DNA of 53,777 nt from Methanomicrobiaceae archaeon (GTDB lineage: Archaea; Halobacteriota; Methanomicrobia; Methanomicrobiales; Methanoculleaceae). Under the pieces are notes generated by a model, which saw only the letters and a list, made by a program, of their open reading frames with translations, made no database searches and was not told the origin of the DNA. The DNA is taken from positions 1-53,777 of the forward strand of contig JAHKLN010000032.1 in assembly GCA_020854755.1 (NCBI GenBank). Reading direction: 5' to 3'. The position numbers and the translations under genes are program-made. Positions 14,963-22,234 of the stretch are shown one piece after another. Numbering within the stretch: the stretch's first letter is position 1; each line of letters starts with the position of its first letter.

Positions 14963-15418
14963 TCATCCGGTGTACAGAGCAATGGCCTCGCCGACCTGGT
15001 TCATGTACCGGTCCGTGGCCCTGACGAACGCCTCCCAGTCCGACCCTGCCGGGAGGTTAATGTCGATGTCAAGAGCATACACCCTGAAGAGATAGGTCTC
15101 GATCTCGCCTTTATTCGGGCAGGGACCAGTGTACCCGACGACCCCGAAATCGTTCCTCCCCTGCACCGCCCGGATGGGCGACGATATCTCGGGACCCTTC
15201 GGAATGCCTTCGGGTATGACCGGCATCGGGTTGATGTTCCAGATCAGCCATGCGGCCCGCGAGGGGCCTTCTTCAGGAGTATTGGTAGCGAGAATTGCGA
15301 TGGACTTGATATTCGGCAGGACTCCCTCGATCGCGATCCCCGGTGATACATCCCCTCCCCTGCAGGTATGCAGGATGGGAAACTCATCGAAGCCCAGCTT
15401 TACCGTTAACGGATGCAC
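14963..15418 (-). CDS. PEBP family protein 1 (YbhB/YbcL-like)
   Basis: 151-residue phosphatidylethanolamine-binding/Raf-kinase-inhibitor-like protein. Family blocks are GGDVSPGIAI, AAWLIWNINP, IPEGIPKG and GRNDFGVVGYTGPCPNKGE. The usual Asp-Pro-x-Ala-Pro motif is degenerate, with NTPEEG at that position, so ligand binding may have changed. No signal peptide is evident. The first of three codirectional paralogs in 2 kb. The role in archaea is unknown. Confidence 0.9.
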   Translation of the reverse strand: MHPLTVKLGFDEFPILHTCRGGDVSPGIAIEGVLPNIKSIAILATNTPEEGPSRAAWLIWNINPMPVIPEGIPKGPEISSPIRAVQGRNDFGVVGYTGPCPNKGEIETYLFRVYALDIDINLPAGSDWEAFVRATDRYMNQVGEAIALYTG

Positions 15419-15520
15419 TCTCCCCCTCCTCCGCTCACCTGTTCCATGCAGGAGTATACTATATAAGGATTATTGACAGGATGCCCGACGGCGCACCCAT
15501 CCGGGCAGCGGGGCGGTTCA

Positions 15521-15985
15521 CTAACCGTAGATGGCGATCGTATCCCCGAACTGGAGCACATGCCCCTTCATGGCACCGATGACCTGATGCTTTGCGGCGC
15601 CCGGTGGAAGATCCAGCATGGCATCGAGGCCGTATACCTTGAAAAGGTATCGATGCATCTCGCCGCTCCGGGGGCAGGGTCCGCGATACCCGATGCTGCC
15701 GGCGTCGTTTATGCCCTGCAGCGCCGAAAGAGGGTGCGTCACCCTGCCCTCCTTCGGGATGCCCTCCGGAATCGTAGCCCGCGGTTCGATATTCCAGATG
15801 ATCCAGGCGGTATGAGAGCACCCTGGCTCAAAGGGGTTCAATGCAAAGACGGCGATCGATTGCACTGCAGGATTAAGACGGCCGATCCGGATCTCAGGCG
15901 AGATGTCGCCTCCGTAACAGGTACTTCTGATCGGAAGTTCGGCGGATCTCAGCTGGACCGATAGTCTCCCCACACCGGCATTCAT
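15521..15985 (-). CDS. PEBP family protein 2 (YbhB/YbcL-like)
   Basis: 154 residues from the ATG at 15985; the open frame runs upstream without family similarity. It has CYGGDISPEIRI, TAWIIWNIEP, IPEGIPKEG and NDAGSIGYRGPCPRSGEMHRY. As in paralog 1 the DPxAP position is altered (NPFEPG), and the conserved NDFG is NDAG. It is therefore the more diverged copy. The gap to paralog 1 is about 100 nt, with no operon-like overlap. Confidence 0.88.
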   Translation of the reverse strand: MNAGVGRLSVQLRSAELPIRSTCYGGDISPEIRIGRLNPAVQSIAVFALNPFEPGCSHTAWIIWNIEPRATIPEGIPKEGRVTHPLSALQGINDAGSIGYRGPCPRSGEMHRYLFKVYGLDAMLDLPPGAAKHQVIGAMKGHVLQFGDTIAIYG

Positions 15986-16199
15986 GGCAGGAGATATGAA
16001 AGTGAGATGAAAAAGATTGCTGAGTCCATGTATCTTCCGGAAGGATGGGATCACATGCTCTCTGCATCGGATGCATCCATTCCCGGAGATACCAATATTT
16101 CGCCCCAATCGCGGGTCAGAGTTATCCGATCGAGCGATGGTGCGCATTTTTCTCCGGTTGGGAACTTTCATGTGAAATTAAGCCGGTTTCCGGGATGAA
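15986..16199. other. Gap between PEBP genes 2 and 3, first part
   Basis: No gene is supported here. It ends with a short CATGTGAAATTA stretch (16169-16180) also seen near 80-91 at the window start, which suggests the dispersed repeat family extends this far. Confidence 0.4.
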
Positions 16200-16370
16200 G
16201 ACACTCGCCTCTCAACTCCATTCGCCCCCATATACGGCTTCCCTGCGACTGTCCACATCGTGGGGCGGCGGCCTGCGGGGAGATCTCCCCGCCCGGGGCG
16301 ATGCCTGCCCGATGCCCATCCACGGTCCACGGGAGCAGGACATTAAAAAACCGGATACGGGATACCTGCG
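16200..16370 (+). repeat. Intergenic repeat copy with perfect palindrome
   Basis: In order it contains CTCCATTCGCCCCCATATAC, ACGGCTTCCC (16234-16243), a perfect 18-bp palindrome GCGGGGAGATCTCCCCGC (16275-16292), TCCACGGTCCACGGGAGCAG and ACCGGATACGGGATACCTG. The same order occurs at the right window end, where the palindrome is replaced by a different hairpin. The remaining sequence to 16503 shows nothing else. Confidence 0.65.
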
Positions 16371-16503
16371 CACGATGCATCGATCGTCTCACGTGCGTCA
16401 TAGTCTGCGGGGTCTTGCCCGGGTTTCGAAGCACCATTTTATGGACCCGGGATTGCATACCGCATAACGACAGGCTGGCTGACAGGCTTCAGCAGCCGGT
16501 CCA

Positions 16504-16971
16504 TCAGGGCACAACCCTCGCCTTTCGGCTATAGAGCGCCATCGCCTCCCCGTACTGCACTGCCACGGCCTGCAGTGCGGTCTCAAGCTCTCTCCTGCCC
16601 GCTCCTGCCGGAAGGCCGATCGCTTCCCGCATACCGTAGACCCTGATGAAGAACCGGTGCGTCGCCCCTTTCGGCGGGCAGGGGCCGCCGTACCCGACAT
16701 CCCCAAAATCGTTCCTCCCCTGCACCGCCCGGAAGGGGGAACTCACCTCGGCGTCGGCGGGCACGCCCTCCGGGATGACATCCCGTGCCGGGATGTTCCA
16801 GATAAGCCAGTGGGAAAACGTCCCTCCGGGTGCATCCGGATCATCCATGATGACCGCAATATACGGCGTGCCGAGGCCGGCAATCTCGATCTTTTGGGAT
16901 ATATTCTCCCCGTCGCATGCATGTCTCTGCGGGAATCGTTCGAAGTCCAGTCGCACGTCCAGATGCTCCAT
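16504..16971 (-). CDS. PEBP family protein 3 (YbhB/YbcL-like)
   Basis: 155 residues. The ATG at 16971 is chosen because a GGAGG Shine-Dalgarno sits 6 nt before it and the protein then starts like the family (MEHLDVRLDFERFP); upstream in-frame ATGs would overlap the next gene. This copy keeps the canonical MDDPDAPGG motif, HWLIWNIPA and NDFGDVGYGGPCPPKGATH. It is probably the ancestral-like member of the trio. Confidence 0.93.
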   Translation of the reverse strand: MEHLDVRLDFERFPQRHACDGENISQKIEIAGLGTPYIAVIMDDPDAPGGTFSHWLIWNIPARDVIPEGVPADAEVSSPFRAVQGRNDFGDVGYGGPCPPKGATHRFFIRVYGMREAIGLPAGAGRRELETALQAVAVQYGEAMALYSRKARVVP

Positions 16972-17015
16972 CTTCGCCTCCTCGGGAGATGGGGATATAA
17001 AGATGTTGCGATGCA

Positions 17016-17744
17016 TCAGAACAGACCCATATCCTGCGCCTGTTTCAGGATATCCTTCACATCGCGGTCGCTGAGATCGTACCACCGCTCGTATGCCTCC
17101 GCCACTGCAAAGGCGTATCCGGTCCTGACATTTGTGCAGATAACCAGATCCGCCTCTCGTGCGAGGAACGTCACGGCATCCGCCGACCCGGTAGGCACCG
17201 CGACGACCACCTCCCGCGGCCCTTCGGACCGGGCCGCCCGGACCGCAGCAAACATCGTATAGCCCGATGCCAGCCCGTCGTCGGTGAGGATGACCGTTGT
17301 GTCTGAGAGAGGCGGCTCCTTCCTGTCGCCGACGAACATTGCCAGCCGCTCCTTCACGCTCCTCCTCGCCTTCTCGACGGCGGCGTCCACCGCTTCATCC
17401 GTAAGCCTGAGTCCGGCAAGCAGATCCTGGTTTAAAAAGACTCTCCCGTCCCAGGTGACCGCGCCGAACCCTGCTTCGGGGTTCCACGGTATCTGGACCT
17501 TTCTCACCACCGCCATCCGCAGGGGGCAACCGAGCGCCCGTGCAACCTCTATCCCGATAGGCACGCCCCCCGCAGGGATGGCGCAGACCACCGGATTGTC
17601 ATCGATTCTCTCCCGGACGATCAATGAAGCCACTCTCCTGCCTGCCTCGGTCCGGTCGCCAAACACCGAAACCCGGTTTTGCAATGCCTTGTCCTCGATA
17701 ATGCTGCCCATCGCCACCACCAGCTCCGTCTGCATCATCCCCAT
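17016..17744 (-). CDS. Phosphoribosyltransferase family protein
   Basis: 242-residue type I PRTase-fold protein. The PRPP-binding loop VILTDDGLASGYTM is at about 150-163 with paired acidic residues, and a GGVPIGIEVARALGCPL loop is near 60-76. Homologs are often annotated as ComF-like or uncharacterised PRTases and found next to PEBP or stress genes. The substrate cannot be deduced. It is 44 nt upstream of PEBP 3 and codirectional, so they may share a transcript. Confidence 0.85.
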   Translation of the reverse strand: MGMMQTELVVAMGSIIEDKALQNRVSVFGDRTEAGRRVASLIVRERIDDNPVVCAIPAGGVPIGIEVARALGCPLRMAVVRKVQIPWNPEAGFGAVTWDGRVFLNQDLLAGLRLTDEAVDAAVEKARRSVKERLAMFVGDRKEPPLSDTTVILTDDGLASGYTMFAAVRAARSEGPREVVVAVPTGSADAVTFLAREADLVICTNVRTGYAFAVAEAYERWYDLSDRDVKDILKQAQDMGLF

Positions 17745-17826: not shown

Positions 17827-18705
17827 ATGCAACCTCCCCGCAATCTCCTGAAGGTGTATACGGACGGCGCCGCCCGCGGCAATCCGGGTCCGGCGGCATG
17901 GGCGTTTCTTCTCGTCAAGGACGGCCGCATCATAGCACAGAGGTCAGGGTATCTCGGAAAGGCGACGAACAACGTTGCCGAGTATCACGCAGTGATCCAT
18001 GCCCTCACCGAGGCGCATAAACACACGGATACGGTGGAGATATATTCCGATAGCGAACTGGTCGTCAGGCAGATTACCGGGCGGTATCGTACCGGAAAAG
18101 AGCATCTCGCAGCACTCAGGCGCGATGTACTCCGCCTGGCCGGAGGCTTCTCGAGTATCACCTTCTCGGCGATACCGCGGGAAGATCCGCATATCCAGGC
18201 AGCCGATAGGCTCTGTAACGAAACAATCGATAGGCATACCGGGAAGGGCGGATCCGGACGAAGGAATACGGCCGTCACCTGCACGCCTATCGGCGTGATC
18301 CGCTCTCCCTATACGGGGCAAAAAGCCGCCCCCCGGCAGGGAAGGCTCTCCGACGCTCTCAGCGAGATCATCGTTTTTGATGAATATGCTCCGGCCCTCA
18401 GGGGGATCGAGAGGCGCTCGCATCTCATCGTGCTCTACTGGCTCGATCAGGCGGACAGATCGCTGCTCATTGCCGTTCCTCCGGGGCAGGATGAAGAGTT
18501 CGGCGTCTTCTCCATCCGCTCTCCGTCCCGCCCGAACCCGATCGGGTTTGCCGTGGTGGACCTGATCCGGCGGGATGGTACCAGGCTTACGGTCAGGGGG
18601 CTGGACGCCTTCGACGGGACGCCGGTGCTCGACATCAAGACATATTCAGCAGAGTTCGACTGCATTCCGGAGGCAAAATCCAATAAAGAGAAAAGAGCGG
18701 GTTAA
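17827..18705 (+). CDS. RNase HI fused to TrmO-like tRNA methyltransferase
   Basis: 292-residue two-domain protein. Residues about 8-135 are an RNase HI of the archaeal/plant-like short type, with all four catalytic acids: Asp13 (YTDG), Glu52 (NVAEYHA), Asp75 (YSDSE) and Asp127 (AADRL). After a short basic linker, residues about 147-285 match TrmO/TsaA (VTCTPIGVIRSPYTGQ, FSIRSPSRPNPIGF, DGTPVLDIKTY), which methylates N6-threonylcarbamoyl-adenosine-37 of tRNA in bacteria. No frameshift or internal stop separates them. The 3' end overlaps AOR convergently by 4 nt. Confidence 0.88.
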   Translation: MQPPRNLLKVYTDGAARGNPGPAAWAFLLVKDGRIIAQRSGYLGKATNNVAEYHAVIHALTEAHKHTDTVEIYSDSELVVRQITGRYRTGKEHLAALRRDVLRLAGGFSSITFSAIPREDPHIQAADRLCNETIDRHTGKGGSGRRNTAVTCTPIGVIRSPYTGQKAAPRQGRLSDALSEIIVFDEYAPALRGIERRSHLIVLYWLDQADRSLLIAVPPGQDEEFGVFSIRSPSRPNPIGFAVVDLIRRDGTRLTVRGLDAFDGTPVLDIKTYSAEFDCIPEAKSNKEKRAG

Positions 18706-20516
18706 GGGGCGGGAGCCCCTGCGGCCGCCGGAATCATCTGCTCAAGCCCGAGCTCCCGCAGTTTTTCCGGAGTGGGGCGGCCTGTTGCATCCCATCCCCT
18801 GACCCGGTAATATTCATCGAGGAGCGGCTGCCGCCTCCAGACCCTCCCCTTCGGTGCGCCTTCCCCGAGCGGCTCCTCCAGGAGGCGGCGAGGCAGGGTG
18901 TCATCCTCCTTCGTCACCCCTGCTGCCAGGTTGAAGAGTTTCTGCATGTTCCATACCCGCTCTCCGATAAGCAGCGCCTTCCCGGAATCGATCTCAACCC
19001 CGGTCGCTGCCGAGATCATCGCGGCGTAATCGGCAGCTCCGAGCGGGAACGCAGTGAAGAGGCAGCTTCCCGAGGAATCGATAACCGCGGTAAGATCCTG
19101 GAATGTCTTCGTCCACTCCGCTTTACCCTTATCGGTGAAAGGATCGAGCTTCTCCGGCGATCCGAGCACCTCGGGCGAGACCATATAGCCGTAGACATGG
19201 TCGCCCCCCCGGACCGAGGTGGCATACGCCAGTCCGTGCCCCTGCAGCCCCCGGGGGTCATAGGCAGGCAGTTCCTGCTTCTTGACGCTCATTGAGAGCT
19301 CCGGATGGCCGTAGCGCTCCGCGAACCGGTAGGATCCTTCTGCAAGCTCATCGCCGATGCCCTCCCGGTATGCAATCCTGTGGACGAGAGAGAGCATCAT
19401 CTCTCCGTCCCCGAAGGCGATCCTCTCGGGAATGTAGCCCCGCTCAGACATCTCCATTGCGCACGCGATGGTTGCGCCGGTCGAGATGGTATCGAGCCCG
19501 AGATCGTTGCAGAGATGGTTCGCAAGCGATATCTGTGCAAGATCGTCGATGCCGCAGTCGGGGCCGAACGCCCAGATGGTCTCGTACTCCGGCCCCTCGA
19601 TGACCTCCCCCTCAAGCTCGATCTCTCTGCCGCACTGGATGATGCATGCCTGGCAGCCCACCTTGCTCTTCAGGATGGTGCCTGCCATCTCCTCGCCAGA
19701 AACGCGCTCCGCTTCCGGGAAGTGGGCAGTCTGGAAGTTCCGGGTCGGCAGAATGTAGTTTTCGTTCACGATATTAACGAGTACACCGGTCCCGAACCGG
19801 GGAAGCCCTTCTCCTGATATAGCATTCTCCCGGATCTTCTTCCCGATCTCTGTCTTCAGCCGCGTAACACGCTCACGATCTGCGACTGCTATCCTCTCCT
19901 TTCCCCGAGCGGCAACGGCCTTCAGGTTCTTCGATCCCATCACCGCACCGACGCCGCCGCGTCCTGCAGCCCGTGAATTCTCATTGATGACCGCAGCGAT
20001 CCTGCTCAGCCGCTCGCCGGCGGGACCGATACAGGCAACCCTGATCCTGTCGTCGCCCAGATCAGCCTGAATCGCCGATGATGTCTCCCGCGTTGTCCTG
20101 CCCCAGAGGCGGGATGCATCGCGGAGCTCCGCCGCTCCATTGTCGAGAAGCAGGTACGTCGGCGCTGCCGCCTTTCCGGAGAAGATGACGGCGTCAAATC
20201 CTGCCCGCTTCATGCTCGTGCCGAACTCCCCTCCGCTGTTCGCACTGGTCGTGGTGCCGGTCAGCGGGGATTTGGTGATGACGTCATAGCGCGATCCGAT
20301 CGGAAAGCCGCTCCCGGTTATGGGTCCGCTCGCAAATACCAGGACATTCTTCTGATCAAAGGGATCGGTTGCGGGGTCGACCATATCGGTAAGGAGCTTT
20401 ATACCGAGCCCCCGCCCTCCGATATAGTCCCGTTTCCATTCCTCGGGGAATGGTCTCGCCTCAAACACACCTTCGGTGAGATCCACGTAGAGGATTCTGC
20501 CTGCATAGCCGTTCAT
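18702..20516 (-). CDS. Aldehyde ferredoxin oxidoreductase (AOR family)
   Basis: 604-residue tungsten/molybdenum-pterin enzyme oxidising aldehydes to acids with ferredoxin. The N-terminal domain has GGRGLGIKLL, the pterin-contact region has AAGRGGVGAVMGSKNLKA (about 187-204), and the 4Fe-4S ligands begin at CQACIIQCGRE with a fourth Cys in SSGSCLFTAF. The length is normal. The substrate is not predictable, since AOR, FOR and GOR types overlap. The divergent MoaD-like gene supports a pterin link. Confidence 0.93.
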   Translation of the reverse strand: MNGYAGRILYVDLTEGVFEARPFPEEWKRDYIGGRGLGIKLLTDMVDPATDPFDQKNVLVFASGPITGSGFPIGSRYDVITKSPLTGTTTSANSGGEFGTSMKRAGFDAVIFSGKAAAPTYLLLDNGAAELRDASRLWGRTTRETSSAIQADLGDDRIRVACIGPAGERLSRIAAVINENSRAAGRGGVGAVMGSKNLKAVAARGKERIAVADRERVTRLKTEIGKKIRENAISGEGLPRFGTGVLVNIVNENYILPTRNFQTAHFPEAERVSGEEMAGTILKSKVGCQACIIQCGREIELEGEVIEGPEYETIWAFGPDCGIDDLAQISLANHLCNDLGLDTISTGATIACAMEMSERGYIPERIAFGDGEMMLSLVHRIAYREGIGDELAEGSYRFAERYGHPELSMSVKKQELPAYDPRGLQGHGLAYATSVRGGDHVYGYMVSPEVLGSPEKLDPFTDKGKAEWTKTFQDLTAVIDSSGSCLFTAFPLGAADYAAMISAATGVEIDSGKALLIGERVWNMQKLFNLAAGVTKEDDTLPRRLLEEPLGEGAPKGRVWRRQPLLDEYYRVRGWDATGRPTPEKLRELGLEQMIPAAAGAPAP

Positions 20517-21003: not shown

Positions 21004-21900
21004 ATGACAAATACCGAAGAAGTACATCCGGAGTCCTGCAACGGGACCTGTGCAACCTGCCCATCCGCAGCGAAATGCAACGATCCGCGGAACGTTGCAC
21101 AAGAGCACGGCCTCCCTCCGAAGGCAAATATCAACGTCAAACACGTCATTCTCGTGCTGAGCGGCAAAGGGGGTGTCGGGAAGAGCACGGTTGCCGCAAA
21201 CCTTGCGTTTGCCCTCTCCAATCACGGTTACAATACCGGACTGGTCGATCTGGATATTCACGGACCGAATATCCCGAAGATGCTTGGCATCGAGGAGCAC
21301 CGGCTCCAGTCTTATGACGGGAAGACGATCGAGCCCGTGCGGATCACCGGGACGCTCGCCGTTGTCTCGATGGCCTTCCTGCTGCCGGAGAAGAATACCC
21401 CGGTCATCTGGCGGGGCCCCATGAAGATGACCGCTATCAAGCAGTTCCTTGAGGATGTCAGCTGGGGCGATCTCGACTATCTGGTTGTGGATCTTCCTCC
21501 CGGCACAGGCGATGAGGCCCTCACCATTGCGCAGATGGCACCGAATATTGCGGGAGCGGTCATTGTCACCACACCGCAGGAGGTTGCCGTCATGGATTCG
21601 AGCAAGGCGGTCGAATTTGTCAGGAAACTTGATCTGCCGGTTCTCGGTATCATCGAGAACATGAGCGGGTTCGTCTGCCCGCACTGCGGTAAGGAAGTCG
21701 ACATATTCGGCACCGGCGGCGGAAAGAAAGAGGCGGAGGATCTTGGCGTGCCGTTCCTGGGCAGCATTCCGCTCGACCCCGATATGCGGAAAGCTGCAGA
21801 CGAAGGCCGCCCGTTCATCATCCGGCGGGGCAAAGAGAACCGGACATGGCAGAGCATCAACGACGTTATGGAAGCTCTCGTGAAGATCGTTGAGGGATGA
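21004..21900 (+). CDS. Mrp/NBP35 (ApbC-type) Fe-S cluster carrier ATPase
   Basis: 298-residue P-loop ATPase that carries and transfers 4Fe-4S clusters. The deviant Walker A GKGGVGKSTVAANLAFAL is near residue 57, Walker B is in LVVDLPPGTGDEA, and the cluster-bridging CPHCGKE is near residue 223. An N-terminal extension holds CNGTCATCPSAAKCND, as in NBP35/Nubp1 and many archaeal Mrp proteins. This fits a methanogen rich in Fe-S enzymes. The next gene begins 1 nt after its stop. Confidence 0.95.
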   Translation: MTNTEEVHPESCNGTCATCPSAAKCNDPRNVAQEHGLPPKANINVKHVILVLSGKGGVGKSTVAANLAFALSNHGYNTGLVDLDIHGPNIPKMLGIEEHRLQSYDGKTIEPVRITGTLAVVSMAFLLPEKNTPVIWRGPMKMTAIKQFLEDVSWGDLDYLVVDLPPGTGDEALTIAQMAPNIAGAVIVTTPQEVAVMDSSKAVEFVRKLDLPVLGIIENMSGFVCPHCGKEVDIFGTGGGKKEAEDLGVPFLGSIPLDPDMRKAADEGRPFIIRRGKENRTWQSINDVMEALVKIVEG

Positions 21901-21901
21901 T

Positions 21902-22234
21902 ATGGGAAACACGGCATACATATCGATCATCAGCGGGAACGAGGAACCGCTCCCGGTCTTTGCCTCCATTGTCCGGTCGCTCGAACACCTGGAAGAATTT
22001 CCCTTCCTGGTGGAGCCGATCTACCGTGAAGCAGTCCAGTTAAATGAAGTGCAGACCGATAGGCTGCGGTTTGGCCTTATCCGTCTGCAGTTGTATGCCG
22101 ATATACACCGTTACGATGATATGGAGACGGCCCAGAAGATGAAGTACGTTGCACAGGTGCTTGAACGGGTCATCTTCGGGGGGCTGCTCCTTGAAGGGGA
22201 AGAGCCGGTCGAGAAGTGCTCCTGCGGCTACTGA
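21902..22234 (+). CDS. Conserved-looking small protein downstream of Mrp
   Basis: 110-residue acidic protein I do not recognise. The ATG at 21902 immediately follows the Mrp stop, so it is translationally coupled to it. It is mainly helical, and the C-terminus is GGLLLEGEEPVEKCSCGY, a Cys-x-Cys tail that could accept or bind a metal. Coupling to an Fe-S carrier makes a role in cluster delivery possible, but this is only context. Codon use matches the neighbours. Confidence 0.65.
   Translation: MGNTAYISIISGNEEPLPVFASIVRSLEHLEEFPFLVEPIYREAVQLNEVQTDRLRFGLIRLQLYADIHRYDDMETAQKMKYVAQVLERVIFGGLLLEGEEPVEKCSCGY

Follow-up and report, generated by a model that had tools for sequence, protein, structure and literature searches.

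Each half of the protein analysed here has a close counterpart among described proteins. Its N-terminal part resembles the Halobacterium RNase H1 (4e19; 41% identity over 133 columns in a fold search, TM-score 0.93 by target length), with which it shares the same four acidic residues and from which it differs by an additional C-terminal domain of a methyltransferase type. The C-terminal part resembles AF0241 of Archaeoglobus fulgidus (UPF0066/YaeB, 2nv4), whose AdoMet-contacting residues (Q22, R82, D111 and K122, as given in the available passages of PMC4132733) are all common to both proteins, although AF0241 is a stand-alone protein and the domain described here is fused. Bacterial TrmO (E. 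coli YaeB; P. aeruginosa 7btu) likewise possesses the beta-barrel AdoMet domain of the TIGR00104 family, but the bacterial and mammalian proteins have in addition a C-terminal DPRxxY domain. An N-terminal RNase HI followed by an unrelated enzyme domain is also found in the actinobacterial RNase H/acid phosphatase (PRK07238; Rv2228c, 3hst), a protein mentioned for Streptomyces in the available part of PMC1950709; the RNase H halves match, whereas the partner is a phosphatase there and a methyltransferase-type domain here. We found no paper on an RNase HI-TrmO fusion, or on the corresponding gene pair, in the open-access literature (domain databases may list the architecture automatically). What we describe is a genuine fusion of domains from two known families that recurs among genomes; it most likely arose from neighbouring genes, and its two activities are most likely independent.

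Within the window (the whole analysed stretch of 53,777 nucleotides), the fused gene occupies positions 17827..18705 of the plus strand as a single open reading frame (ATG to TAA, 292 aa) with domain hits over the cut-offs. The RNase HI domain (residues 1-140; 17827..18246, plus strand), recognised by Pfam and by fold, harbors residues D13, E52, D75 and D127, which we take from knowledge of the family to be its catalytic acids. It is followed by a linker without an in-frame start (residues 141-148; 18247..18270, plus strand) and by an archaeal-type TrmO/YaeB domain (residues 149-292; 18271..18702, plus strand). The Pfam matches over the cut-off comprise RNase_H (residues 8-86, E 7.8e-15), RVT_3 (residues 13-132, E 5.1e-14) and TrmO_N (PF01980; residues 168-278, E 2.6e-32, 111.9 bits vs 26.8), and the NCBIfam model TIGR00104 (TrmO/YaeB, UPF0066) scored 160.4 against a cut-off of 93.25. 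The NCBIfam RNase HI equivalog cut-offs were not reached (best NF041306, 101.9 bits vs 300), these being naming thresholds that fit whole proteins of other subfamilies and do not define the family. We thus assign a putative RNase HI function from the family and the active site; the fusion was the sole RNase HI-like gene that a PF13456 search found in the genome (G000). Since the alignment to AF0241, the YaeB of known structure closest to the fusion, is gapless (chain residues 4-135 to fusion residues 153-284; 132 residues, E 5e-48), the AdoMet contacts map to Q171, R231, D260 and K271. The DPRxxY domain is absent (the 292-aa protein holds no DPR, and the chain ends shortly after the barrel). 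The predicted structure consists of two confident domains (pTM 0.57) joined by a linker with pLDDT below 50 at residues 142-148, with parts of the TrmO domain at 60-80; at this pTM the mutual placement of the two domains is not set by the model. A fold search with this model gave as top matches 2nv4 (YaeB with AdoMet) and 4e19. A chance or spurious frame was also considered, and is excluded by the domain and structure-family matches.

In an order-wide search of 232 Methanomicrobiales genomes, 220 produced a match, and 68 loci containing both domains (one per genome) were analysed; families, genera, genomes and loci are hereafter coded f1-f6, g1-g40, G and L. The two domains are fused in 37 of these loci, lie in adjacent genes in at least 19 (a lower bound, as not every pair among the matches listed was taken) and are separated by one gene in 12. 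The fused state was encountered in the window (g1) and in genera g12 (8/8 genomes), g13 (19/25), g19 (6/7), g17 (1/2) and g23 (2/3), while adjacent unfused pairs occur in members of g2 to g5 (the family of the window) and of g16 and in G011 of f2, and the intervening gene typifies g14 (12/12 genomes). The possibility that the fusion is spread through the phylum was discarded: within a phylum sample of 392 genomes (the order contributing about 80), 150 passed E 1e-30, and all listed two-domain matches fell inside Methanomicrobiales, with no fusion outside the order among the matches listed; five stretches from outside it with extended matches were themselves devoid of RNase HI. Fused and unfused loci alike retain the active sites of the two halves: D13, E52, D75 and D127 are kept in 68/68 loci, as are Q171 and R231, and K271 in 67/68 (the exception, L013, is a gap, its sequence stopping just before the position), while position 260 is occupied by D in 42 and by E in 26 loci.

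The genomic setting of the pair is conserved as well. Many loci of f1, f3, f4 and f5 have RNase HI and TrmO directly upstream of a gene for an Mrp/NUBPL-type P-loop ATPase, often followed by a short gene, and this ATPase is the downstream neighbour of one or both genes in many f1-f6 genomes (in several g13 loci it was not found within the sequence stretch at hand). Other f1 and f4 loci share with the window an aldehyde ferredoxin oxidoreductase gene as the next one after TrmO. In the window this convergent gene (18702..20516, minus strand) lies outside the fusion, as part of its context, and is succeeded by a ThiS/MoaD-like gene, the Mrp/NUBPL-type ATPase (21004..21900, plus strand) and a short gene without assigned family (21890..22234, plus strand) that comes after Mrp in many relatives. 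On the upstream side, a divergent phosphoribosyltransferase gene (17016..17744, minus strand) is a neighbour conserved through much of f1 and in some of f2. Twelve f4 genomes have a gene for a PD-(D/E)XK, Cas4-like nuclease between RNase HI and TrmO (Pfam was run on 1/12). The locus also occurs with only one of the two genes: in five f2 genomes TrmO lies directly upstream of Mrp and RNase HI is absent there, and among the 11 f6 loci with RNase HI that were examined, six have it before Mrp without TrmO and five have neither nearby. Genome G100 has RNase HI before Mrp without TrmO, and its genus mate G101 is fused. These single-gene states indicate that RNase HI and TrmO share a slot, yet that either may be missing from it.

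As side observations on the surroundings of the locus, the Cas4-like gene of the f4 loci (G084-G095) has hydrophobic stretches ahead of the nuclease part, and forms one frame in L048 and seemingly two overlapping frames in L090, L091 and L043. Furthermore, positions 14963-17085 of the window (minus strand) hold a run of phosphatidylethanolamine-binding-protein-type genes (by Pfam for 16507-17085 only, by sequence likeness for the rest), and a similar run adjoins the locus in G073 (L088).

With regard to the origin of the fusion, the phylogenetic tree clusters the window protein with unfused genes of its own family (support 99/90), its nearest kin having the unfused pair, and the best tree requires at least three changes between the split and fused states. 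Repeated fusion is the likeliest history, though not a proven one. The alternative that we considered, a single ancestral fusion followed by later splits, was not rejected by the AU test (p 0.134 for a clade of all fused genes), and neither was a topology that unites the window and the fused f5 genes (p 0.262). In G073 and G053 the two genes share a reading frame and are parted by a TAG and a new ATG, an arrangement which shows that the step from split to fused is small. Most likely the fusion came from neighbouring co-oriented genes. The locus presents one site in stages, from separate to fused, and is useful for the study of the origins of domain fusions.

We consider it probable (at about 0.68) that the gene encodes a bifunctional protein derived from fused neighbours (rnhA and an archaeal-type trmO/yaeB), in which two largely independent enzymes would be held on a flexible tether; that both domains are active, that TrmO forms a dimer and that no substrate is shared are points that we infer. 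The co-oriented genes for archaeal RNase HI and TrmO/YaeB would have fused at a conserved locus upstream of the Mrp/NUBPL ATPase. The RNase H domain is predicted most likely to use two-metal catalysis to cut the RNA of RNA:DNA hybrids (primers, R-loops), and the TrmO domain most likely to bind AdoMet as a homodimer and to methylate a substrate. Connected by a short flexible tether, the two domains would act largely independently of each other, and the fusion would mainly fix their ratio at 1:1; a TrmO dimer would moreover hold two RNase H domains together. A single model with a pTM of 0.57 leaves room for what may be a fixed domain arrangement. The existence of lineages with TrmO alone or RNase HI alone at the locus argues against strict interdependence.

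A base error that joined two truly separate genes in this draft genome would be a further alternative, and the fact that the nearest kin have two genes, mostly in differing frames, speaks for it, as does the dependence of the join on a single draft assembly (G000, 81% complete), the only genome of its genus (g1) in the sample. On the other hand, the segment leading from the RNase HI terminus to the first TrmO strand holds no in-frame ATG, GTG or TTG, a search of 18201-18320 showed no Shine-Dalgarno core, and both alternative frames carry the RNase HI end into the TrmO core before any stop; a separate full TrmO is consequently unreadable from the window sequence. An in-frame start codon at the join is likewise missing from 15 of the 37 fused loci (window included). 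Furthermore, 36 other Methanomicrobiales genomes carry the identical architecture, which is thereby independent of the window genome, and the order-wide search ruled out that it is peculiar to this draft. We hence regard such an error as highly improbable and the fused frame as probably not an assembly artefact. The preliminary description had noted one unbroken frame with all four RNase HI acids, joined to a TrmO-family domain; the frame coincides exactly with the 292-aa gene, and the fusion is genuine, rooted in a conserved pair of co-oriented genes. It had also suggested a search for the same architecture across Methanomicrobiales, and had named an assembly error joining two genes and the loss of conserved TrmO residues as findings that would speak against it: the former does not hold in view of the 36 further fused genomes, and the latter is contradicted by the conservation of these residues on alignment of the 68 loci.

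As to what the fused protein does, the two domains could be functionally coupled, both acting on one RNA (a hybrid strand or a tRNA-derived RNA) with the fusion channelling the substrate. At least four families retain the pair, three of them with fusions, and selection for a joint role, as opposed to neutral coupling, could lie behind this; the Cas4-like nuclease gene between the pair in f4 hints at nucleic-acid work. However, the five f2 genomes have TrmO and Mrp without RNase HI at the locus (the RNase H half was unmatched in all four of those searched), 6/11 f6 loci have RNase HI and Mrp without TrmO, no common substrate is known and the model gives the linker low confidence, all of which makes coupling unlikely. 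A more specific proposal, namely that the TrmO-type domain methylates the RNA handled by the RNase H domain, or labels hybrids so that they are protected or exposed, appears to us quite improbable; if true, archaeal YaeB would be a methyltransferase of RNA in hybrids and not of tRNA, and the retention of the pair and its fusion in several families would be accounted for. The preliminary description had labelled the C-terminal half an m6t6A37 methyltransferase; on this view, tRNA would receive its m6t6A37 from the TrmO domain, with the RNase H domain tied to tRNA function. While the passing of the TIGR00104 equivalog cut-off and the kept AdoMet residues are in line with this label, the 'full TrmO-like domain' on which it was placed is complete as the archaeal short form (with all four AdoMet residues) but lacks the DPRxxY domain. 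In the available passages of Kimura et al. 2014 (PMC4132733), E. coli is said to require this domain for forming m6t6A and all archaeal YaeB proteins to be without it; the same passages state that m6t6A had never, as of 2014, been detected in archaeal tRNA. Moreover, the isobaric 427 peak of M. acetivorans is assigned to hn6A in the available part of PMC10702137, despite the presence of a PF01980 protein in this archaeon (a control in our profile search). The accessible portion of PMC7668247 gives t6A, ms2t6A and hn6A as the large A37 modifications in archaea and names m6t6A only for E. coli, and that of PMC9654439 lists it for Bacteria and Eukarya. We therefore hold m6t6A37 formation by this protein to be very improbable, and the tRNA modification to have been over-read. 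A YaeB/TrmO copy joined to RNase HI in 37 genomes, which can be expressed, offers a concrete handle on the substrate of archaeal YaeB.

The genome of the window encodes five PF01980 proteins (seven YaeB paralogs are given for Methanoculleus marisnigri in the available passages of PMC4132733). With respect to the copies L001 (G000:C92) and L005 (G000:C115), one belongs to an ABC-transporter set that includes a solute-binding protein, and the other adjoins a MoeA gene; such varied neighbourhoods suggest that the TrmO family does several things. A TrmO-domain tree built to place the other copies of this genome was poorly resolved. The copy in the window is itself found near an aldehyde ferredoxin oxidoreductase gene and a MoaD-like gene, and archaeal YaeB may be linked to molybdenum/tungsten genes; a search of the open-access literature for a link of TsaA to tungstate or molybdate found none.

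RNase HII (PF01351) gave no match in G000 and was present in the other 41 of the 42 genomes searched. We considered and set aside the idea that RNase HII was lost from this genome and replaced by the fusion: with an assembly completeness of 81%, missing sequence is the probable reason for not finding it. In four f5 genomes (G113, G118, G119 and G120; genera g21/g22) the RNase HI half was unmatched and two RNase HII-family matches were obtained, the second of which lies in a frame of 349-371 aa; this combination recalls the exclusion of RNase HI and HIII reported in the available part of PMC1950709.
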